From positions 1 to 20,405 of IMG/VR virus record IMGVR_UViG_3300030101_000163: a DNA stretch of 20,405 nucleotides, one strand, 5' to 3'. The notes under the pieces are model-generated. The model did no database searches. It was given only the letters and a program-made list of their open reading frames with translations, and had not been told where the DNA came from. Below, in pieces: positions 10,552 to 20,405 of the stretch. The stretch's first letter is position 1. Every line of letters starts with the position of its first letter. The position numbers and the translations under genes were made by a program. The DNA is from a virus.

Positions 10552-12393
10552 ATGCAAAACATTATACAGATGGAAGATGACATCAAGGGTATGCCCGATC
10601 AGACTCTGCAAATGTTGGCGAGACAGCCAAGCAGTCAGGTTCCACAGTTTCTTGTTGTTAGTGAGATACAGCGCAGAACGGACATGCGGAAGCGTTTTGA
10701 AGCGCAAAAGCAACAACCTCAAGGATCGGTATCAGATAGAATAGTTGATGAAGGTTTGGCTTCACTGGCACCTCCTCCTCAAATGCAAGCTCCTATGCCT
10801 ATGCAACCTCAACAGATGCCACAGCAGATGGCTGCTGGTGGTGTTGTAGGTATGCAAGCAGGAAGGCAAGCTCCATTTACATATTTGTCTGATCCTAGAA
10901 GAGCTGGAGATGCTACCTCTAGACAAAGAATGCTAACTCCAGAGGGAAGGGCAGCTATAATGCCTTTGTATACAGGCACAACTCAGCTAAGAGAAAGCAA
11001 TAGGGGTGGAGAGTTTATAACTCCTAGTAAAATGAGAGAAATGAGAGCTGCTGGTCTTTCTGAAAACGATTATCAAGAAATGTTAGAGGCAGATGGTGGT
11101 TCAGGATCAGGGTATAGGGTTGATGCAACTGGTGGTCTTGTCAAAGACGCACCAACATTTGAGTATCAGGCATTTGATCCAGAACTAGCAGAAAGTTTTG
11201 CCGGTGTGGAATTTGAAAGTGAGAGCTTTGATCCTCTTGGAAGGACTAAAGAAGCTAACCTAGTAAGATTGGCTAGATTTGCAGAGCAAAATCCAGAAAG
11301 GTTTGGGCAAATTCAGGAAGGTCTTCAGGCTGGTCAGACGTTAAGAGAGTTTCTGCAAGCAGAAGATATAGCCAGAATGGGTGAGGCGATGAGGCCCGGA
11401 ATGGAGGCAATGTCTTACTCTGGCAATCCTCCCACAAACAGAGTTGATCCTATGGATCTTGATCAAGACGGTTTAGGGCTTAGTCCTGATGTAGATCTAT
11501 CTGAGGTTTTATCTTTTTCAATGCCTGAAATAGACGAAGGTGACGCATCAAAGCTTGCTTCAAACGCTGTTAAAGAAGATGGCACTCAAAGTCCATTAGA
11601 AGCGGCTGTAGCTCAAGTTGCTGCTGCAAGAGGGAAGAAAGCAGATGCAGAGTTTAATTATCAGGCTTTGATTGATCGGGCTAATACCAGTGCAGAACAA
11701 TACACTAGAGAAGCGGCAGAACGAGCAGAAGATTTAAGAAAGGAATCTAAGAAAGATATGTTGAGTAGTGCGTTGATAGAGCTTGGTGCTGGTATAGCTG
11801 CCGGTGATCTAGCTGGTGGATTGTCAAGAGCCGGTAGATCTGCTGCTGACATCAAGCAAACTGCGTCAACACAGGCTAGAGCTGAAGAGGCAGAAGCTAG
11901 GAGATTGGCTGAAGCTGCTAGACAAAGAGGAGAAGGATTCTCGATAGAAGCATTTAAGTCTGCTCAAGAGCAGGAACGATATGATCAACAACTGGATATT
12001 TCAGCTAAAGAGTTTGCTGCGAACATAGCTAGGTCAGATGCAGAGATGCAGTTAAGAAGAGATCTTTCTGCTGATGAGATAGAGGCTAGAAATTTACAGA
12101 TTGAGAATCAATTCAAAAATGATCAAGAAATACTAGAAACTAGATTAACGGCTGAAAGCGAACAAACAGCTCTTAGAACTCAACAACAAAATGCTCAAGC
12201 ATTTGCTGAATTTATAGAAGATACGTTAGATAACGCCACTAACAGGGCGATATTAGATAATATATATGATCCTCAAGAAAAGCAGGATAAAAGAGATGAG
12301 TTAAAAGCTGCTCTGAGGGCAGAATACAGGAAGTATTTTACAGGCTCTTCTACAGGTCAGTCTAAGTATAAAGTAACTCAAAGAAGCCCCTAA
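10552..12393 (+). CDS. Virion-associated coiled-coil protein with MPDQTL...SEIQRR N-terminus
   Basis: The 613-residue protein starts with MQNIIQMEDDIKGMPDQTLQ and PQFLVVSEIQRRTDMRKR (to about residue 48), a recognisable N-terminal module of many marine podophage structural proteins. A Pro/Gln/Met-rich linker (about 73-93) and an AAGGVVGMQAG motif (about 92-103) follow, then an acidic middle. Residues about 345-405 are helical, next to a Gly/Ala hydrophobic patch (ELGAGIAAGDLAGGLSRAG, about 408-426). A long charged coiled coil runs from about 430 to 600. It is placed between two other ejection-type proteins and overlaps the start of the 1900-residue gene by one base (TAATG). It is probably an internal virion protein. 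Confidence 0.75.
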   Translation: MQNIIQMEDDIKGMPDQTLQMLARQPSSQVPQFLVVSEIQRRTDMRKRFEAQKQQPQGSVSDRIVDEGLASLAPPPQMQAPMPMQPQQMPQQMAAGGVVGMQAGRQAPFTYLSDPRRAGDATSRQRMLTPEGRAAIMPLYTGTTQLRESNRGGEFITPSKMREMRAAGLSENDYQEMLEADGGSGSGYRVDATGGLVKDAPTFEYQAFDPELAESFAGVEFESESFDPLGRTKEANLVRLARFAEQNPERFGQIQEGLQAGQTLREFLQAEDIARMGEAMRPGMEAMSYSGNPPTNRVDPMDLDQDGLGLSPDVDLSEVLSFSMPEIDEGDASKLASNAVKEDGTQSPLEAAVAQVAAARGKKADAEFNYQALIDRANTSAEQYTREAAERAEDLRKESKKDMLSSALIELGAGIAAGDLAGGLSRAGRSAADIKQTASTQARAEEAEARRLAEAARQRGEGFSIEAFKSAQEQERYDQQLDISAKEFAANIARSDAEMQLRRDLSADEIEARNLQIENQFKNDQEILETRLTAESEQTALRTQQQNAQAFAEFIEDTLDNATNRAILDNIYDPQEKQDKRDELKAALRAEYRKYFTGSSTGQSKYKVTQRSP

Positions 12394-15300
12394 TGCCCGT
12401 TTATACAGTTGAAGATCCTGTATCTGGTGTAGTTTTAGATCTAGAAGGCGCAGTGCCTCCATCTGAATTAGAGTTAGATGAAATCTTTTCTCAATATAGG
12501 CAACCCGATCCGGCTCCAGAGCCTTTCGTTCAGGAAGTTGAAGAGGAAGATGACACAGGGATTATAGGACAAACAGGAGAGTTTTTAAAAGCAGTCCCAC
12601 GGGGCTTTGCTTCTGGCTTTCTATCTTCTGCTGAAGGTATTGCTGAGTTAGCAGATGCCACTACAAACTTTGTTGGTCTTGAGGATCTCATAGACAGTGG
12701 CGAAGAGAATGAGCTGGTTCGCCTTGCTAGAGAAGGCCGTAAATCACTAAACGAAAGCTTTCTGGGTGTTGATGAGAAGTACAAAGACGCTTGGACTACA
12801 AAGCTTGGTGAGGGAGTTGGATCGCTAGCCACATTCTTAACGCCCGGAGTCATTGCTCGTGTTGCTGGCACTGCTGGCAAAACTATGAAGGCCATAGAAT
12901 ACGGTGGTGCTGGAGCACTTGCTGTCGGTGCTGGTGCTGGTGATCAGGCACAAAGAATACAAGCAGCTAGAGATGCTGGCTTAAATGTAGACAATATGAC
13001 TGAAGATCAGGCAATAGTCAGCGGCGCGGCTGTTGGTTTGTCTGAGCTAGTACTGCCTATAAATCTATTCAAACGATTTGACCGTATAGCCAGTGACGAT
13101 ATAAAGAAAGAAGCTTTAAACAGAATAAAGAGCGCATTGGCTTCGGGATCAACTGAGGCTGTGCAAGAGGCTACTGCTGGTATCGCACAAGACTTGATAG
13201 AGAAGGGTTTGTATAACGAAAACCTACCTCTTTACGGGTCTTTAATGGACGATCTGACCGTTGGTGGTGCTACTGGTGCGTTAGCTGATCTGGTATTGAC
13301 CTCCGCTGCTGGAAGAAGAAGACAAACATCTGTTGATTCTGAGAAAGCAAAAGATCAGGGGAATATTCAGCAGGAAGAGCAGGATCAAGAAACAATACAG
13401 CAAACAATAAGAGAAGAAGCTGAGATACAGCAAGAGTTAGCTCAAGCTGTTGATGAAACGTATACTGATTTTGCCGGTCAGCTACAATCTCAAGATTTAG
13501 CTGCTAAAGAAGCAGAAATAAGAGAAAGAAGAAGGGCTGAAGCAAGCCCTGATGATATACGCCCAAGAAGAGGCGAAGACTACGCATCAATAATAGAGAG
13601 CAGTATGGGGGCTTATTTCCCATCTAGCGCAAAGTTTGATGTAAGAGAATCTATTTCTGTAGACCCCACTACTGGTCAAGAACGAACTCAGTTTGAGGTG
13701 TTTGAGACATCTACTAATCAGCGTTTTGGTGTGCCAGTCAACAAAACAGAAGCAGTTAAACTTCTGGATGGTCTGAACAAAAAAGTTATATCTAAAAACG
13801 TCATGCAACAAGCCACTGATGCTATGGATATTTCTCCTGAAACCTACGATACAGAACAGGCTGGCAAGCTATACAGAATACACAAAAGAGTATTAGAGCC
13901 TGAAGTCAATACGGTAACTTCTGCTTCGTTAAATGAAGCGGCTGGAACCACATTTCTACTTGAAGACAAAGACGGAAAGATTGTCTCCTTCCCAGAAACA
14001 GCTACCTTTGAAGAGATCATCGAGCGCACAGGGCGCAAATCAATAAATAGATCTGATCTACCCGCCTCCATGCAGTTGAACCTAGACAGATACAGAGATG
14101 GTCTGCCTGAATCTGACTCTTTCACGTTTGAAGAAGCCGCCAAAGTTCTTAACCCTGATCAGATGCAAGACTTGATTAGCATACAGGTCAAAGCCAGAAC
14201 AGAATCAGAAAGCTATCAATCAACTAGAAACGAAAAGGGTGAGCCAGCGGTAATATCTACTGATGGTAAGACCACTAGCCTTCGCCCAAGAAACGAGAGA
14301 GAAAGAGCGCAAGCTGAAAGGGAAGGCATAAACCCGGATTCGTTAGTTAAGTTTACCTCCCAAAGAGATGCAACCAACTTTGCTAACAAGCAAAATCAGG
14401 CGATTGGCACAGGCCCAGTGCCTAGAGGTATAGCTGATCTTGAAGGCGGTGGTGCTGCTACAGAAATACAGAATCTTTTAAACAACAAGAACATAGATGC
14501 CAAAGTAAATTCAAGAGAAGTCAAGGCCATAGCTAAGTCGTTTGTCGGCAAAAGCGACATAGGCAAGATGACCACCCCAGAAAGAGAGCTTTTTTATTAC
14601 AAGCTCAGAGCATTCCCAAAGTTTGATAAACCTACCAAGTTACCGAAGAACTTCTTTCGGGTAAAACCTTTTACAAGACAACAGTTTAACGCTGCGAAGA
14701 ATGCCATAAATGACACTGGAGAAAGCGGTGTAAACACTATTCGTCAAGCTTCTGGTTTATTAGATCAAGACTCTTTGACAAACAAGAAAGTTTTGAGATT
14801 GCGAGAAGAGCTTGTAGAGCAGGGAGTTATAAACAAGCGAGGCAAGGTATTGGCACCTTCTCCAAAAAGGCCAGAACCGCCTACCGTTATGGCTCAACCA
14901 AAAGAATCAACTTTAGACGAAGAAACACAAAGGTTAATATCAAAACAACCGAAAGCTCCTGTTTTAGATGAAACATTTGGGTTCCCTGTAGAGGTAAGAG
15001 CTAATCAGATACAGTCTAAAGCAGAGCAAGAAGCTAGCGTCAAAACAGGCCAAGCAAGAAGAAGCGTTGATCAAGTAAAACAATCCTTGCCTCCTAGCGA
15101 GGTTGGTAATGCCACTGTTGAAGAAGTGATTGAGGCAGAGACTGTTGATCGAGCAGAAAGAAATTTGCCTCCAGATGAGTTTGCATCCTTTGAAGCACCT
15201 ACCACTACTAGGGGCGACAGGTTTATCTTTCAGTTTGCTGACAAGCTGATTGGATTAAAAAAGATAGAGGAAGCAATAAATGCTGGCAGAGAAAAGCTTG

Positions 15301-18095
15301 GTCTTTCCCCTATACCAGCACTGAAGTCAGCTTATCTTGGTGAAGAATCTATAGCCGGTAAAGTTGGAGAAAGCGCAAGAGTATTTCAAAGAGAAGAGGT
15401 TGATCCGATTGTTGAAGATCTGGTTGCGATCAATACAGAAAAGAGCACACAAGAGGCAAGAAAGGAGTTTGATGACTACCTGACTTTGCGTCACGCAATA
15501 GAAAGAAACAAAAGAATATCTGAGGTTGATCCGCAAAATTTTGCTGATGGTGGAGCTGGTTCAATATTGGTTGGCGATCAGGAAGTGCGCCTGACTGATG
15601 ATTACGTCAAAACAAGAATGAAAGAAGAGTTTGATCTTGACTGGAATGATAGTAAAGGCGAGTGGACTGGCGGTAATAAGAGAGCAAAAGAGTTAGAAAA
15701 GATTGCTAAGAAAACTGATGCGATCATACAAGGCACACTGGATATACAGTTAGAGTCTGGGCTGCACTCGCAAGAAGATCACGATATGTTGTCTGGTCTG
15801 TTTAAGTATTATGTCCCGTTGAAAGGTAAAGCAGTCGAGGATGACTTTGCTGAGTTGTATTCTGCAACTGCTGGCACAAGCGGGAACCTTGGCACTAAGG
15901 GTGCAGAGGGTAAGAGGGCTCTAGGAAGAAAGTCTGCGGCAGAATCTCCATTAGCGACATTAATAGCTGACAGAAACAGGCAGATAGCCAGAGCAGCTAA
16001 GAATGTAAATATAGGCCAAAGACTATATGACTTAGCAAAAGAAAATCCCAACACAGATGTTTGGGAAGTCATTGATGCTAAAAGCCCTAGGTTTGATCGC
16101 ATAGTTGAAAGCTCTTACACCTACATACCCACTGGTCAAAAGGTAGCAAACATACCTGAAGGTATATCAAAGGAAGAGCGCAAGAACTATGTAAGAAGAA
16201 CAAAGCTGACCACAAAGAGCGCAAAAGAAGTTGGCAGAGAAAACCCTGATTTATTTGGTGTAAAGATAAACGGAGAGCAAGCTTTTATAGAAATCAAAGA
16301 TCCTGATCTCAAGAAAGCTTTGTTAAATCTAGATGCCGATAACACCAACAAGATCATACAAACTCTAGGCACAGTTAACAGATTCTTCTCTGCTGTAAAC
16401 ACATCTTTTAACCCTGAGTTCGTTGTAGGTAACTTCGCTAGAGATATACAGACAGCGGTTTATAACATACTTGGTGAACAGTCTATGCCAGCGGGTAAGG
16501 CAGAAGATACCAAGATAGTTAAACAGGTAGTCAAAGATACGTTCCCAAGCATCAAGGCTTTCTACAAGGGGTTCAGAAACAGCGGTAATCAGACAGAACA
16601 AGAAAGACAAGATTACAAAGAGTACATAAGTGCCGGTGCCAAAGCAGACTGGTTCCATAGCAGACCTCCGGGCGAACAGCTAAAGACTATAGAAACCATG
16701 ATCGAGATGAGCAAAGGAACCTTTAAAGGTGGCTTTAGAAAAGGTTATGAGTCGGTAAAAGATTATGTAGAAGACGCCAATGCTGCTGTAGAAAACGGTG
16801 TTCGCTTTGCTTCTTTCAAAGCAGCGAGAGATCAGTTCATAGAGAAAGGCATACCTCGTGATGAGGCTATTGCCAAAGCCGCTACGCTAGCTAAGAACCT
16901 AACTGTAAACTTTAATAGATCTGGTGATCTCGGCCCCACACTAAACAGCCTATATCTGTTCTTCAATGCTTCTGTTCAAGGCACATTAAACTTTGCCAGA
17001 GGATTGAATGTATTTGATCCAAAATCATCAAGACTCAAGCAGAAGATAGTTGGATCTATGATCGGGGGTGGTGCTCTGGCTGCTGCGTTAGCAGAGGCAA
17101 TGAGTGACGAGGATGAAAACGGCAAGTCCTTTTACATGAATATTCCTGAGTTTGAGAAGGAAAGGAATATCATAATCATGCGTCCCAATGGAAAGGATTA
17201 TTTTAAGATACCTTTGCCATACGGATACAACGCATTTCATGTGATGGGCCAAAACATTTTTGAGTCTTTGGCTGGATTAAAATCTCCAGAAAAAGCAGCA
17301 ACGATGGTAACTAAAACATTGATGGGATCTTTCAACCCGATTGGCTTTGCATCATCTCAAGACTTCTCTACACAGTTGTTAAAGACTGGTAGCCCAACAG
17401 CTCTTGATCCTTTTGTTGAGATAGCGGTAAACGAGAACTTCTTCGGATCACCTGTTTATACAGAGAACTTTCCTTTTGGCACACAGTTGCCTGAATCTCA
17501 GCTATCAAAGTCTTCTACAAACGAATACTTTAAGAACTTAGCTAAGTTTCTAAATGGGTTAGGAGGCGGCAACGAGAGTGAGCCGGGATTAGGCGGGGTC
17601 ATGGATATATCTCCTGACAAGCTACAACACCTGTTTAATTTCTCATTGGGCGGTATGGGTGCCACCGCTCTCAGAACGAAGACTGCTTTTGACAAAATAG
17701 CTAACGATGAAAATATATCAGTGAATCAAATCCCGTTTGTTAGAAGAGTGCTTGGCGAGGTAGATCACAGAATGAGCCAGCAAGATTTTTACGAGCGATC
17801 TGCTGATATAAAAAGAAAAGTTAATCAAACAAAGAATGTATTAAAAGGCCCGGAAAGGGTTGCATACGCTCAAGAAAATCAGCCATATCTATCTATGGAA
17901 GCTGCGATGAAAGCTACCGACAAAGAAATAAGATCTATAAATAAAAGGCTGACTCAACTGAGATCTCTTTCATCCCAAAGCCCAGCTAATTCAAAGCAAT
18001 TCTTAGAAGATGAAGAGAAGCTTTTGGAGATGAAGAAGCAAGCTTATGATCGGTTTAATAAGCGGTTCAATTACATCGTAGGTCAAGATAAGTAG
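12393..18095 (+). CDS. Giant 1900-aa internal virion / polyvalent-like ejection protein
   Basis: This is the largest gene. The N-terminus (MPVYTVEDPVSGVVLDLEGA, then PPSELELDEIFSQYRQ) is the type found on marine podophage virion proteins. A Gly/Ala-rich hydrophobic region lies at about 140-185 and another at about 205-230. A long charged, probably helical region follows, with EFDDYLTLRHAIERNKR near 1020-1040. The C-terminal part resembles a large polyvalent protein-associated domain (LPD38-like): NRFFSAVNTSFNPEFVVGNF (about 1328-1347), then NFNRSGDLGPTLNSLYLFFN (about 1508-1527), then a short hydrophobic helix (1552-1571). By size and position as the last gene of the set it corresponds to T7 gp16. 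I saw no clear lytic transglycosylase motif. It is presumably ejected with the DNA. Confidence 0.8.
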   Translation: MPVYTVEDPVSGVVLDLEGAVPPSELELDEIFSQYRQPDPAPEPFVQEVEEEDDTGIIGQTGEFLKAVPRGFASGFLSSAEGIAELADATTNFVGLEDLIDSGEENELVRLAREGRKSLNESFLGVDEKYKDAWTTKLGEGVGSLATFLTPGVIARVAGTAGKTMKAIEYGGAGALAVGAGAGDQAQRIQAARDAGLNVDNMTEDQAIVSGAAVGLSELVLPINLFKRFDRIASDDIKKEALNRIKSALASGSTEAVQEATAGIAQDLIEKGLYNENLPLYGSLMDDLTVGGATGALADLVLTSAAGRRRQTSVDSEKAKDQGNIQQEEQDQETIQQTIREEAEIQQELAQAVDETYTDFAGQLQSQDLAAKEAEIRERRRAEASPDDIRPRRGEDYASIIESSMGAYFPSSAKFDVRESISVDPTTGQERTQFEVFETSTNQRFGVPVNKTEAVKLLDGLNKKVISKNVMQQATDAMDISPETYDTEQAGKLYRIHKRVLEPEVNTVTSASLNEAAGTTFLLEDKDGKIVSFPETATFEEIIERTGRKSINRSDLPASMQLNLDRYRDGLPESDSFTFEEAAKVLNPDQMQDLISIQVKARTESESYQSTRNEKGEPAVISTDGKTTSLRPRNERERAQAEREGINPDSLVKFTSQRDATNFANKQNQAIGTGPVPRGIADLEGGGAATEIQNLLNNKNIDAKVNSREVKAIAKSFVGKSDIGKMTTPERELFYYKLRAFPKFDKPTKLPKNFFRVKPFTRQQFNAAKNAINDTGESGVNTIRQASGLLDQDSLTNKKVLRLREELVEQGVINKRGKVLAPSPKRPEPPTVMAQPKESTLDEETQRLISKQPKAPVLDETFGFPVEVRANQIQSKAEQEASVKTGQARRSVDQVKQSLPPSEVGNATVEEVIEAETVDRAERNLPPDEFASFEAPTTTRGDRFIFQFADKLIGLKKIEEAINAGREKLGLSPIPALKSAYLGEESIAGKVGESARVFQREEVDPIVEDLVAINTEKSTQEARKEFDDYLTLRHAIERNKRISEVDPQNFADGGAGSILVGDQEVRLTDDYVKTRMKEEFDLDWNDSKGEWTGGNKRAKELEKIAKKTDAIIQGTLDIQLESGLHSQEDHDMLSGLFKYYVPLKGKAVEDDFAELYSATAGTSGNLGTKGAEGKRALGRKSAAESPLATLIADRNRQIARAAKNVNIGQRLYDLAKENPNTDVWEVIDAKSPRFDRIVESSYTYIPTGQKVANIPEGISKEERKNYVRRTKLTTKSAKEVGRENPDLFGVKINGEQAFIEIKDPDLKKALLNLDADNTNKIIQTLGTVNRFFSAVNTSFNPEFVVGNFARDIQTAVYNILGEQSMPAGKAEDTKIVKQVVKDTFPSIKAFYKGFRNSGNQTEQERQDYKEYISAGAKADWFHSRPPGEQLKTIETMIEMSKGTFKGGFRKGYESVKDYVEDANAAVENGVRFASFKAARDQFIEKGIPRDEAIAKAATLAKNLTVNFNRSGDLGPTLNSLYLFFNASVQGTLNFARGLNVFDPKSSRLKQKIVGSMIGGGALAAALAEAMSDEDENGKSFYMNIPEFEKERNIIIMRPNGKDYFKIPLPYGYNAFHVMGQNIFESLAGLKSPEKAATMVTKTLMGSFNPIGFASSQDFSTQLLKTGSPTALDPFVEIAVNENFFGSPVYTENFPFGTQLPESQLSKSSTNEYFKNLAKFLNGLGGGNESEPGLGGVMDISPDKLQHLFNFSLGGMGATALRTKTAFDKIANDENISVNQIPFVRRVLGEVDHRMSQQDFYERSADIKRKVNQTKNVLKGPERVAYAQENQPYLSMEAAMKATDKEIRSINKRLTQLRSLSSQSPANSKQFLEDEEKLLEMKKQAYDRFNKRFNYIVGQDK

Positions 18096-18098
18096 AGT

Positions 18099-18125
18099 GC
18101 CGCCTCTAGGCCAGATCTGGGCGGC
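18099..18125 (+). terminator. Candidate hairpin ending the virion transcript
   Basis: A 6-bp GC-only stem, GCCGCC with GGCGGC, lies four bases after the stop of the 1900-residue gene, with a loop that contains the palindrome CCAGATCTGG. The stem is followed by TTCAG and not by a T-run, so an intrinsic terminator is only weakly supported. It could instead protect the transcript 3' end. Confidence 0.3.
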
Positions 18126-18255
18126 TTCAGATGTGTCACGTTCTTGTAAGGGGAACGCCTGACCTAAATTCTTCCCAGTTTCGGCCCTACTACTGGGGGA
18201 GTAGTTCTTAGGAAGCGGAGTAATGTGCTCCCTTGACCTGTTCAAAATCCTACAT

Positions 18256-18291
18256 AAAATGGCCCCCGTCTGCTAGACCACACGGACGGGG
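18256..18291 (-). terminator. Candidate terminator of the minus-strand recombination operon
   Basis: Read on the minus strand, a 7-bp stem CCCCGTC/GACGGGG (18264-18291) with a 14-base loop is followed by GCCATTTTATG, giving a short T4 tract. This is about 35 bases past the stop of the last minus gene; an AAGGGG/CCCCTT hairpin (18302-18323) lies between. The tract is short and displaced, so confidence is low. Confidence 0.35.
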
Positions 18292-18326
18292 AACGTGCTG
18301 GAAGGGGGTGATGAAATCCCCTTGGT

Positions 18327-18887
18327 CTAAACCGTTCCACATGAAACTATCTCCATGTTTTCTGAGAACGTAATCTGATACTTCGGGAATAGCGCATCAT
18401 TCCCAATATTCTGCCAAATAATATCGTCCAATGGGAGACAATATGCTAGATAGTTGTCTCCTCCCGGCCTATCTCTATCGCTTACCTTTTCCACTGTCCA
18501 ACGATCTCTAGTTGCTGACACGTTAACTACTGCTGCCACAGTCATCTCTTTGTTTATCACAAAGTAAAACGATGGCTCTGGATATGCCCGATCAAAACTA
18601 TTCTTGTTGCAAATGAAGAACTTATCAAAAGGCCAGTGTCCATACTGAAACGATCTGGAGGAGTGCTTGATCTCTATCTTCCTTCCGTTAACAAGCAAGT
18701 CACCTGAGTCAACATGATCCATACGAGATTCAAAGTCTGGTGTTATGGTCTTGTTAAATACCTTCACGCAGTTCTCTTTGTTATTGAGAAGCATCCAAGT
18801 AGCGATCATCTTCTCTGACAAAGAAGAGCCGCCGATCCGCATTTCGTAATGTTCTTTACGATCCATTCCTGCTTTCAAACTGCTCAT
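18327..18887 (-). CDS. PD-(D/E)XK nuclease-like protein
   Basis: The 186-residue protein carries DSGDLLVNGRKIEIKHSS (about 60-77), which fits the PD-(D/E)XK core: Asp63, then Glu72-Ile-Lys74, on a beta hairpin. A helix with SEKMIATWMLLNN precedes it as the usual N-terminal acidic helix. Later stretches PEPSFYFVINKEMTVAAVVN look like further strands of the core. Such proteins act as metal-dependent DNA nucleases (resolvases, exonucleases or host-DNA degraders). Its place at the end of a recombination operon suggests DNA-end or junction processing. ATG 18887 was chosen: GAGGG lies 6-8 bases upstream, and the earlier ATG 18956 lies deep in the HNH gene. It overlaps that gene by 32 bases. Confidence 0.75.
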   Translation of the reverse strand: MSSLKAGMDRKEHYEMRIGGSSLSEKMIATWMLLNNKENCVKVFNKTITPDFESRMDHVDSGDLLVNGRKIEIKHSSRSFQYGHWPFDKFFICNKNSFDRAYPEPSFYFVINKEMTVAAVVNVSATRDRWTVEKVSDRDRPGGDNYLAYCLPLDDIIWQNIGNDALFPKYQITFSENMEIVSCGTV

Positions 18888-19170
18888 ACAAATCCCTCGC
18901 AAGCTCCTGACCGAATGTTTCTTTCCTTCCATACTTAACAAAGAACTTAAACTCATTGCCTACCTGATCATGAAGTACGGCGTGATGATGCTGGCATAGC
19001 GGTATCACGTTCTCGTCAGAGGCTCTCATGCCCATACCCCTACCTCCAGTCCAAGGCTTGAGTAAGTGGTGTGCCTGAACGTCACCCCCACAAGAGAAGT
19101 CTGTTATACAACAAGGCATTTCAGATACTTCCTGTAAGTGCTTCTTAGACTTGAATATCTTCTTCTTCAT
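18856..19170 (-). CDS. HNH endonuclease-type protein, NinG-like
   Basis: This 104-residue protein has a Cys pair (MPCCITDFSCGG, Cys20/Cys21/Cys27), an AHHLLKPW element (His34, His35), DENVIPLC (Asn54, Cys59) and CQHHHAVLHD (His61-63, His67). Order and spacing (HH...N...H, with flanking Cys that could hold a structural zinc) are those of small HNH nucleases, including the phage NinG/Rap and DUF968-like groups. It probably cuts branched or double-stranded DNA. The neighbouring NinB-like gene makes a lambda nin-style recombination role more likely than homing. The start ATG overlaps the upstream 46-residue gene. Confidence 0.82.
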   Translation of the reverse strand: MKKKIFKSKKHLQEVSEMPCCITDFSCGGDVQAHHLLKPWTGGRGMGMRASDENVIPLCQHHHAVLHDQVGNEFKFFVKYGRKETFGQELARDLYEQFESRNGS

Positions 19171-19285
19171 CTTCTCTGGCCTTCTCTGCGAGTTGTATTA
19201 TCAACTTCAGAGTTTCAATGGCACTCAAAGCTAAATTAGTGATCTCTGGATTATCCAGATCTAATTCAATAGTTATCTTGTTCAT
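19145..19285 (-). CDS. Small acidic hypothetical protein
   Basis: The 46-residue product starts MNKITIELDLDNPEITNLAL and continues as a helix ending in an acidic run (REDEEEDIQV). ATG 19285 was chosen because AAGGTG lies 11 bases upstream; a longer form from 19339 would add 18 residues lying wholly inside the NinB-like gene. It overlaps both neighbours, which supports expression from the same operon. It may be a small regulator or adaptor, and no family was recognised. Confidence 0.55.
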   Translation of the reverse strand: MNKITIELDLDNPEITNLALSAIETLKLIIQLAEKAREDEEEDIQV

Positions 19286-19691
19286 GTGGTGGCGGCACCT
19301 TAAAGCCCATCTCTGCGCTGATTCTAATAAGAGTATCAATCAAATCAGCATACGTTGATGTTGTACAGTCTGAGCTTCTCTGATGTGGTCTTCTTCTTGT
19401 CGTTCCAAACTTGGTTACAAACTCGTCACTGCCAAACGTCATACACAAAAGCTCGTCATGTATTTCATCTGGTGCCAGTCCACAGAACTTTCCAAACTCC
19501 CTGCTCCACTTGCGGTAGTAGTTCTCTTGAGATCTTGATCGGTCTTTCTTTCTTTTGCTTACCTTGACCGTCACGCCAGTCTCATCTTTCATAAGATGCT
19601 CTAGCTCTCCAGCTCTTGATGGATGACTCAAGCAGAGGATGTTAACGATCTGACATCCACTGCTTTTATCAAAATCTAATCTGATCTCCAT
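19266..19691 (-). CDS. NinB-like recombination protein
   Basis: The 141-residue protein has a beta-rich N-terminus (MEIRLDFDKSSG) and then KRKKDRSRSQENYYRKWSRE (about 47-64). The R-S-x-x-Q-N-x-x-Y/W element is typical of the NinB family. Next come EIHDELLCMTFGS (about 76-88) and a C-terminal STYADLIDTLIRISAEMG (about 112-129) with VPPP, matching the STxxLxxxEFxxYLxxI...G..LP ending of NinB-like proteins. Lambda NinB (Orf) loads recombinases onto SSB-coated DNA and assists RecF/O/R-type pathways. Its neighbours here, an SSB-like and an ERF-like gene, fit that role exactly. The assignment is by motif pattern only. The start overlaps the SSB-like stop (TAATG). Confidence 0.75.
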   Translation of the reverse strand: MEIRLDFDKSSGCQIVNILCLSHPSRAGELEHLMKDETGVTVKVSKRKKDRSRSQENYYRKWSREFGKFCGLAPDEIHDELLCMTFGSDEFVTKFGTTRRRPHQRSSDCTTSTYADLIDTLIRISAEMGFKVPPPHEQDNY

Positions 19692-20008
19692 TAGAACGGA
19701 ATGTCATCCTCAAAATCATCTTGAGGTGGCGGTGGTGGTGGAGGTGGGGGCGGTGGCGCATCACTGGTTTCGGGTGGCAGGGTTTCCGTTTTCAGCCCCA
19801 TCCATCTGCTACCGTCATCTCCCGTGTTATCCCAAGCGGCTATGGTGATCTTCACCTCGTCTGCCCCATTCTTCATATGGGACATAATGTGCCTTGCTTG
19901 TTCTTTAGTCACAGTTACATGACCCCTGTAGTGGGGCATCTTCCCTGACCGATCATTGTTAGGCCATAGGTTTCCCTTTGACTCTTTCTTTAAATCATAA
20001 TTAGGCAT
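19691..20008 (-). CDS. Phage SSB-like protein with C-terminal DDIPF tail
   Basis: This 105-residue protein has a folded N-terminal part (about 1-78) containing LWPNNDRSGKMPHYRGHVTV and KITIAAWDNTGDDGSRWMGL, a WxND..G.MPxYRG type seen in small phage DNA-metabolism proteins with a probable OB-like fold. A run of 11 prolines (85-95) follows, and the end is QDDFEDDIPF. That end closely matches the C-terminal tail of bacterial SSB (DDDIPF), which recruits repair and replication proteins. It is likely a phage single-stranded-DNA-binding protein or SSB mimic. The typical SSB OB-fold signature is not clear, so a tail-bearing adaptor is also possible. Its start overlaps the ERF-like stop. Confidence 0.78.
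   Translation of the reverse strand: MPNYDLKKESKGNLWPNNDRSGKMPHYRGHVTVTKEQARHIMSHMKNGADEVKITIAAWDNTGDDGSRWMGLKTETLPPETSDAPPPPPPPPPPPQDDFEDDIPF
19724..19757 (+). repeat. G-rich simple tract encoding polyproline on the minus strand
   Basis: On the + strand the 34 bases are nearly all G in GGT, GGC and GGA triplets plus one GGGGG. On the minus strand they encode the 11-proline linker of the SSB-like protein. Such tracts can slip in replication and might form two-tier G-quadruplexes. Confidence 0.8.
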
Positions 20009-20405
20009 TTTCTTCTCCTTGTATTTTCATCTTCTGTGCAGTGAAAGCTGCTCCAATCTCCTCGTATAAATCTGGATAGTTGTCCTTCAATACGTCAATC
20101 CTCCCAGCGTTAGCTCTGTAATATCCAGACCACTTGTCCATGTCATCGTGCATAGACATAATCTCTTTGCACTTCTCTACAAATTTCTTTGCATCTCCCT
20201 CATTCCTTGGCAACCAGTAGTCTCCAGCTTCCACTACTTGTGGCTTACTGCTATCTGATGCCAACGTGAGTCCAGTGTCTTCACTAGACTTTTTCTTAGC
20301 AGGAGCCTTCGGTGCCTTGTCTTTAGCAACGCTTTCTGGATTCTCTTTAACAGCCTGAGTCGCCTTGTTGCCATCGTCATCATCCGCTCCGATGCCACAA
20401 GCAAG
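20001..20405 (-). CDS. ERF-like single-strand annealing protein, C-terminal part (5' end outside window)
   Basis: The frame is open to the right edge, showing 134 residues. It begins LACGIGADDDDGNKATQAVK; a short hydrophobic residue run followed by an acidic D-rich GN turn is the conserved end of the ERF-family catalytic core. A lysine/alanine/proline-rich linker (DKAPKAPAKKKSSE) and a C-terminal helical domain (DAKKFVEKCKEIMSMHDDMD and YPDLYEEIGAAFTAQKMK) follow. ERF-like proteins anneal complementary single strands in phage recombination. Neighbouring SSB-like and NinB-like genes agree. Only the core end is visible, so a Rad52/Sak-type or other annealing protein is possible. Its stop overlaps the start of the SSB-like gene. 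Confidence 0.65.
   Translation of the reverse strand, partial: LACGIGADDDDGNKATQAVKENPESVAKDKAPKAPAKKKSSEDTGLTLASDSSKPQVVEAGDYWLPRNEGDAKKFVEKCKEIMSMHDDMDKWSGYYRANAGRIDVLKDNYPDLYEEIGAAFTAQKMKIQGEENA

Follow-up and report, generated by a model that had tools for sequence, protein, structure and literature searches.

Among tandem pseudoknot families, the closest to the element reported here is STAXI (RF01728), which is built from other units, and the closest fold is that of the flaviviral exonuclease-resistant RNAs (xrRNAs). Type III antitoxins are near-identical RNA repeats that adjoin the toxin gene. The toxin is reported to bind these repeats individually. In STAXI, two or three copies of a pseudoknot unit stand in tandem, near genes for SSB and other DNA-handling proteins (Weinberg 2010, PMC2864571). 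For mosquito-borne flaviviruses, an xrRNA is described as a three-way junction whose third loop forms a pseudoknot with downstream bases, found in tandem copies in an untranslated position (PMC5760640); flaviviral xrRNAs are also reported to stop the bacterial RNase J1 in vitro. Among phages there is a T4/RB69 precedent, in which gp32 attaches to a pseudoknot of the mRNA that encodes it (PMC535899). Glutamine riboswitches were also considered among the known relatives.

The window analysed here is a whole IMG/VR virus record of 20,405 bases, in which a rightward giant gene and a leftward recombination operon converge on a gap. The genes next to the gap (annotated by Pfam/PHROGs scan) are as follows.

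12393-18095, plus strand: giant virion-type gene, 1900 aa, with an LPD38 domain in the C-terminal part
18327-18956, minus strand: gene for a 209-aa protein, last of the leftward operon and directly 5' of the modules described below
18856-20264, minus strand: remainder of the leftward recombination operon within the window
18856-19170, minus strand: HNH/DUF968
19266-19691, minus strand: NinB-like
19691-20008, minus strand: SSB-like
20001-20264, minus strand: ERF-like annealing protein, end only

The 209-aa protein had no family match in Pfam/PHROGs. In a longer relative, G001, ERF and an exonuclease are present in the same operon. Relatives of the giant gene come from Vibrio, Burkholderia, Escherichia, and other phages, all below 60 per cent identity. 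Towards its N terminus (window 12393-14300) the giant protein is unlike that of G001 in start and sequence, and the remainder is close. G001 also encodes an antirestriction protein of the ArdC type (L087:1030-1896), which contains a zincin metallopeptidase domain.

The gap is rich in inverted repeats, which the preliminary description had located correctly: it counted seven, and with perfect arms of at least 6 bases and loops of at most 30 there are five.

18099-18125: GCCGCC/GGCGGC
18174-18197: CCCAGT/ACTGGG
18189-18205: ACTACT/AGTAGT
18264-18291: CCCCGTC/GACGGGG
18302-18323: AAGGGG/CCCCTT

Dinucleotide shuffles contained 1.3 such repeats on average, and 7 of 1000 reached five. The G+C content of the gap is 54 per cent, against 40 and 43 per cent in the flanking kilobases. 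T-runs are nearly lacking, as had been noticed before: the plus strand has no run of four or more T and only two AAAA, so that the minus strand has TTTT only twice, facing the AAAA at 18244 and 18256. Plain minimum-energy folding, which is blind to pseudoknots, was unremarkable (z = -0.84 for the plus and -1.18 for the minus strand). A pseudoknot descriptor applied to the minus strand of 18066-18360 gave scores of 34.1, 33.2, and 23.9; the best of 1000 shuffles scored 26.5, and none had two scores of at least 26. The covariance-model search that the preliminary description had proposed found no match at the gathering cut-off among 4227 Rfam families, and a permissive Rfam search of 17950-18450 returned only a 12-bit snoRNA match. 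A tRNA/tmRNA search found none. Small ORFs in the gap were rejected as genes, one on the plus strand being without a stop in G001 and the others short and unsupported.

Read on the minus strand, 18329-18099 is a series of three modules, 66-70 nt in length, that share one topology. In RNA sense the order of parts is A1, hairpin, B1, two bases, C1, B2, A2, 0 to 3 bases, C2. Helix A closes a three-way junction containing the hairpin and stem B, and helix C (5-7 bp) is a pseudoknot that joins C1, located in the B loop, to C2 just 3' of A2.

18264-18329, minus strand: module M3, first in RNA sense
18323-18329 with 18274-18280, minus strand: M3 helix A
18303-18322, minus strand: M3 inner hairpin
18294-18297 with 18281-18284, minus strand: M3 helix B
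18285-18291 with 18264-18270, minus strand: M3 helix C, pseudoknot
18174-18240, minus strand: module M2, middle
18235-18240 with 18181-18186, minus strand: M2 helix A, the weakest, with a recurrent A.G mismatch
18210-18233, minus strand: M2 inner hairpin
18200-18204 with 18187-18191, minus strand: M2 helix B
18192-18197 with 18174-18179, minus strand: M2 helix C, pseudoknot
18099-18168, minus strand: module M1, last in RNA sense
18159-18168 with 18105-18114, minus strand: M1 helix A
18139-18157, minus strand: M1 inner hairpin, invariant loop
18128-18132 with 18115-18119, minus strand: M1 helix B
18120-18125 with 18099-18104, minus strand: M1 helix C, pseudoknot

The stop codon of the giant gene (TAG, 18093-18095) is 3 bases from the end of M1, and the gene lies outside the RNA. 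All 18 A/B/C pairs of M3 are Watson-Crick. In L119 and L120 the 209-aa gene is likewise followed by homologous modules, which show paired changes; a diverged copy of M2 is present in L124/L125. The loops are strongly conserved in M1 and M2. M1, M2, and M3 differ from each other in sequence and are not near-identical repeats.

Two of the inverted repeats, ACTACT/AGTAGT and CCCAGT/ACTGGG, had been taken to form mutually exclusive hairpins, as in a switch. That reading is not supported: after a two-base register shift, CTACT/AGTAG (helix B of M2) and CCCAGT/ACTGGG (helix C) share no base. Each shows changes on both sides, and both stems form together, as an H-type pseudoknot.

In M1, 97.7 per cent of 130 cells (26 pairs in five sequences) are paired, compared to at most 45.4 per cent with slid partners, and five pairs changed on both sides; its helix C is invariant and by itself gives no covariation evidence. 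In the B-C core of M2, 95.5 per cent of 44 cells are paired across four distinct sequences, with four double-sided changes against none for slid partners. The two unpaired cells, both in L012, reflect a one-base misplacement by MAFFT, and the C helix is fully paired when aligned by hand. The 16 distinct modules together have 280 A/B/C pairs, of which 270 are standard in the minus sense (252 Watson-Crick and 18 G.U), and only one G.U pair appears in the plus sense. The eleven modules found by sequence give 195 of 203 standard pairs in the minus sense, 11 of them G.U, and again a single G.U in the plus sense. Inner pairs are standard in 75/80 cases for helix A, 63/64 for B, and 80/80 for C, and when partners were exchanged between modules, none of 5000 permutations did as well for any helix. 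The A.G mismatch recurs in helix A, at position 5 in four of the sixteen modules and one further outward in L120. This count of sixteen leaves out near-duplicates (the G001 copies, G002 M1, G008 M3, L125, and L135). Modules found by sequence are M1, M2, and the M3 copies of the window, G001, G002, and G008; L119b and L120 came from the first of two descriptors and L118, L119a, L124, and L125 by eye, and only L131, L134, and L135 came unseen from the second descriptor.

The preliminary description had suspected a genuine structured RNA, with covariation in homologues as the check, and this check, once run, bore it out. From the aligned sequences we consider it very probable that the gap encodes a conserved structured RNA, with a fold conserved by shape more than by sequence. 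Because of the G.U bias, and because the modules lie between genes of the same direction in G002 and G008, we place the RNA on the minus strand; it would therefore be the 3'-terminal part of the leftward (recombination) operon and not of the giant-gene operon. The structured region proposed between the convergent operons is thus real, but it had been assigned to the wrong strand.

The identity of the gap between the window and G001 (97.8 per cent) was set aside as a sign of selection, since the whole right side is 96-97 per cent identical and identity alone is no proof. By region, the two are 95.9 per cent identical in the 209-aa gene, 96.8 per cent in the rest of the right side, and 85.5 per cent at the end of the giant gene. 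A sharp mosaic border lies near 18084-18097, where identity falls from about 98 per cent in the gap to about 75 per cent over the final 300 bases of the giant gene.

Related modules occur on thirteen phage contigs from a tailed-phage group. An exact pattern of one hairpin led to G002 (L010/L020) and G003 (L012), and a later pattern to G008 (L024). In G003, M2 and M1 are just behind a giant gene, as in the window. The modules of G002 and G008 sit within operons that read in the same direction as the minus strand of the element, with ORFs between its parts: small ones in G002, with called lengths of 98 and 107 aa and next to a stretch of N (L020:460-1024), and one called at 662 aa in G008 (L024:10690-12678). 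The real protein in G008 is shorter, as the first codons of the ORF overlap M3. Neither the 662-aa nor the 98-aa ORF had a family match. The window, G001, G002, and G008 carry three copies each (ORF-interrupted in the latter two), G003 and L119 carry two, and L118, L120, L124, L131, and L134 have a single copy.

With a profile of the giant-protein end, we took 80 viral loci of 237 relatives, plus 17 genome loci. Nine of the 80 viral loci contain modules: L116 (the same as G001), L118, L119 (two modules), L120, L124, L125, L131, L134, and L135. The 17 genome loci yielded no module with confidence. L184 has a plausible further module (minus strand, from 9179) with a long inner hairpin, 11 nt past a stop codon, in a phage whose giant protein is only 28 per cent identical. 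Among the 29 loci L117-L145, eight of twelve descriptor matches fall opposite the giant gene and at most 700 bases from its stop, a zone of 18,169 out of 489,570 strand-bases; five of these eight loci were known before the descriptor was written and three (L131, L134, and L135) were not, L134 and L135 being near-identical. Four cultivated relatives contained no convincing module, and one match was inside the giant gene of a Ruegeria phage.

With the first descriptor, false positives were numerous in G+C-rich loci. The second, corrected for composition, still returned 11 matches in the 611 kb of the 72 more distant loci, about one per 55 kb; one of them, L184, is plausible. In G008 the second descriptor ranked a false match (30.0) above the true M2 (28.7), and when run on the whole window it recovered M2 only with a wrong helix A. 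Searches with DNA patterns found true modules in 3/3, 3/5, 4/14, 4/16, and 4/42 of the matched stretches, always from G001, G002, G003, and G008 (without G008 for the 3/3 and 3/5 patterns). By reading, the remaining matches are coding or unrelated DNA; distinct fragments were read once and duplicates were not displayed. A DNA pattern had no match in the genome contigs, and blastn of the whole gap against the phage collection had none at E<=1.

The start of an array falls on a stop codon or at most about 50 nt past one, behind unrelated genes. In the window, the first three A1 bases of M3 are the UAG stop of the 209-aa gene (18327-18329). The array likewise starts on the stop codon in G001, L119, and L120, and, by reading, on the UAG of a 74-aa ORF in G003; in L118 and L134 its start overlaps a stop codon. 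Elsewhere the distance past the stop is 5 nt (L124/L125), 17 nt (G008 M2), or 47 nt (L131), and in G002 and G008 the array is 11 nt past the stop of SSB (phrog_378). The upstream genes include the 209-aa family, SSB, others, and one whose product, on visual inspection, resembles a cytosine-C5 DNA methylase. No U-tract follows the modules in the arrays examined.

Like STAXI, the modules occur in tandem (singly in some contigs) and near DNA-handling genes. The RF01728 model nevertheless had no hit in any of five phage records at E<=10, while a genuine STAXI sequence reaches 134.3 bits with that library, and our first descriptor did not match a real STAXI example (L098). The STAXI unit, as read from one real example, runs a1-b1-a2-hairpin-b2 with CUGAGA and UUCG and has no long helix A; its helix order is not the A1-hairpin-B1-C1-B2-A2-C2 of the phage unit. 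Flaviviral xrRNAs share with the modules their topology, tandem copies, and untranslated position. We take the order of parts to be the same in both. The comparison is between an animal RNA virus and a DNA phage, and no sequence relation is expected. We recognised no report of such phage RNAs in the literature searched, where subscription journals are thinly covered.

What the modules do is a separate question. Our favoured account, which we offer tentatively and at somewhat less than even confidence, is a tandem structured RNA acting as a nuclease barrier in cis on phage mRNA. The modules would form the 3' end of the recombination-operon transcript and would mechanically block exoribonucleases, like the flaviviral xrRNAs of the same topology. 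A module at a stop codon would keep a 5'-3' exonuclease (RNase J, where the host has it) out of the downstream RNA, or alternatively would protect the upstream message from 3'-5' decay; several in series would tighten the block, and genes inserted between modules would get a barrier of their own. We favour this account because of the position at stop codons, the independence from the upstream gene, the lack of U-tracts, the xrRNA-like topology, and the tolerance of inserted ORFs, from which each module probably works alone, as expected for cis barriers. Against it, the modules are the last part of the operon in the window, so a 5'-3' block would protect only the modules themselves. The rarity of modules, in just nine of the 80 giant-gene viral loci and none convincing in the four cultivated relatives, also counts against it.

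Several other roles can be weighed on the same evidence. The phage SSB or annealing protein may bind the pseudoknots to control its own operon, as T4 gp32 does and as STAXI, found near SSB genes, perhaps does. Such control would fit the modules directly behind the SSB gene in G008 and G002 and the exonuclease-ERF-SSB-NinB operon of the window and G001, and the T4 operator is likewise a phage pseudoknot tied to an SSB gene. Other arrays, however, follow non-SSB genes, and the T4 operator is a single element of about 28 nt located 5' of its gene (PMC535899), whereas the phage modules are 3' of genes; we regard this role as rather unlikely. Tandem, independently folded pseudoknots of one topology, with very conserved loops in M1 and M2, also recall the type III antitoxins ToxI and CptI, and an excised, stable RNA could act in trans by titrating a host protein such as a defence nuclease. 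A discrete small RNA is possible, but action of this kind seems unlikely to us: the modules differ from each other in sequence, they are single in L120, L131, and L134, and no toxin gene was recognised among the genes scanned (Pfam/PHROGs). Integron attC sites, which are recombination sites, fold as single strands. A comparable element at the DNA level, a single-strand-folding site or hot spot for gene insertion and recombination as has been suggested for STAXI, would account for the different ORFs between or beside modules in G002, G008, L119, L120, and L124 and for the shift in identity between the window and G001 at the module border, from 75 to 98 per cent. We think it quite unlikely, as the 18-to-1 bias in G.U pairs speaks for RNA and insertion beside tolerant 3' UTRs needs no special site.

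Ordinary bidirectional terminators would suit G+C-rich stems between convergent genes, yet they are very improbable here, in agreement with the preliminary description: there are no terminator-like sites and no U-tract, covarying pseudoknots are present instead, and the same modules occur inside co-directional operons. Self-cleaving ribozymes that process a polycistronic RNA could look much like these compact, tandem, intercistronic junctions with a pseudoknot; with no Rfam ribozyme match, and no nucleotides seen in common to all three modules that would form one active site, we give them very little weight. Nothing was found in support of a packaging signal, which had also been raised.

The modules represent a structured RNA class absent from Rfam, with an unusual pseudoknotted junction. 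Both a nuclease-blocking role and the binding of a recombination protein can be tested directly on an RNA of 60-70 nt. If recombination proteins bind the modules, this would be relevant to the STAXI RNAs too, for which an explanation is lacking. Should the modules block nucleases, a mechanism known from animal and plant RNA viruses would have its counterpart in bacterial viruses, and the modules could serve directly as a means of adjusting mRNA stability. The furthest extension of the nuclease-barrier account, conceivable though doubtful, is that DNA phages own an xrRNA-like class, independently evolved and placed in tandem behind stop codons, that would set the lifetimes of recombination messages.
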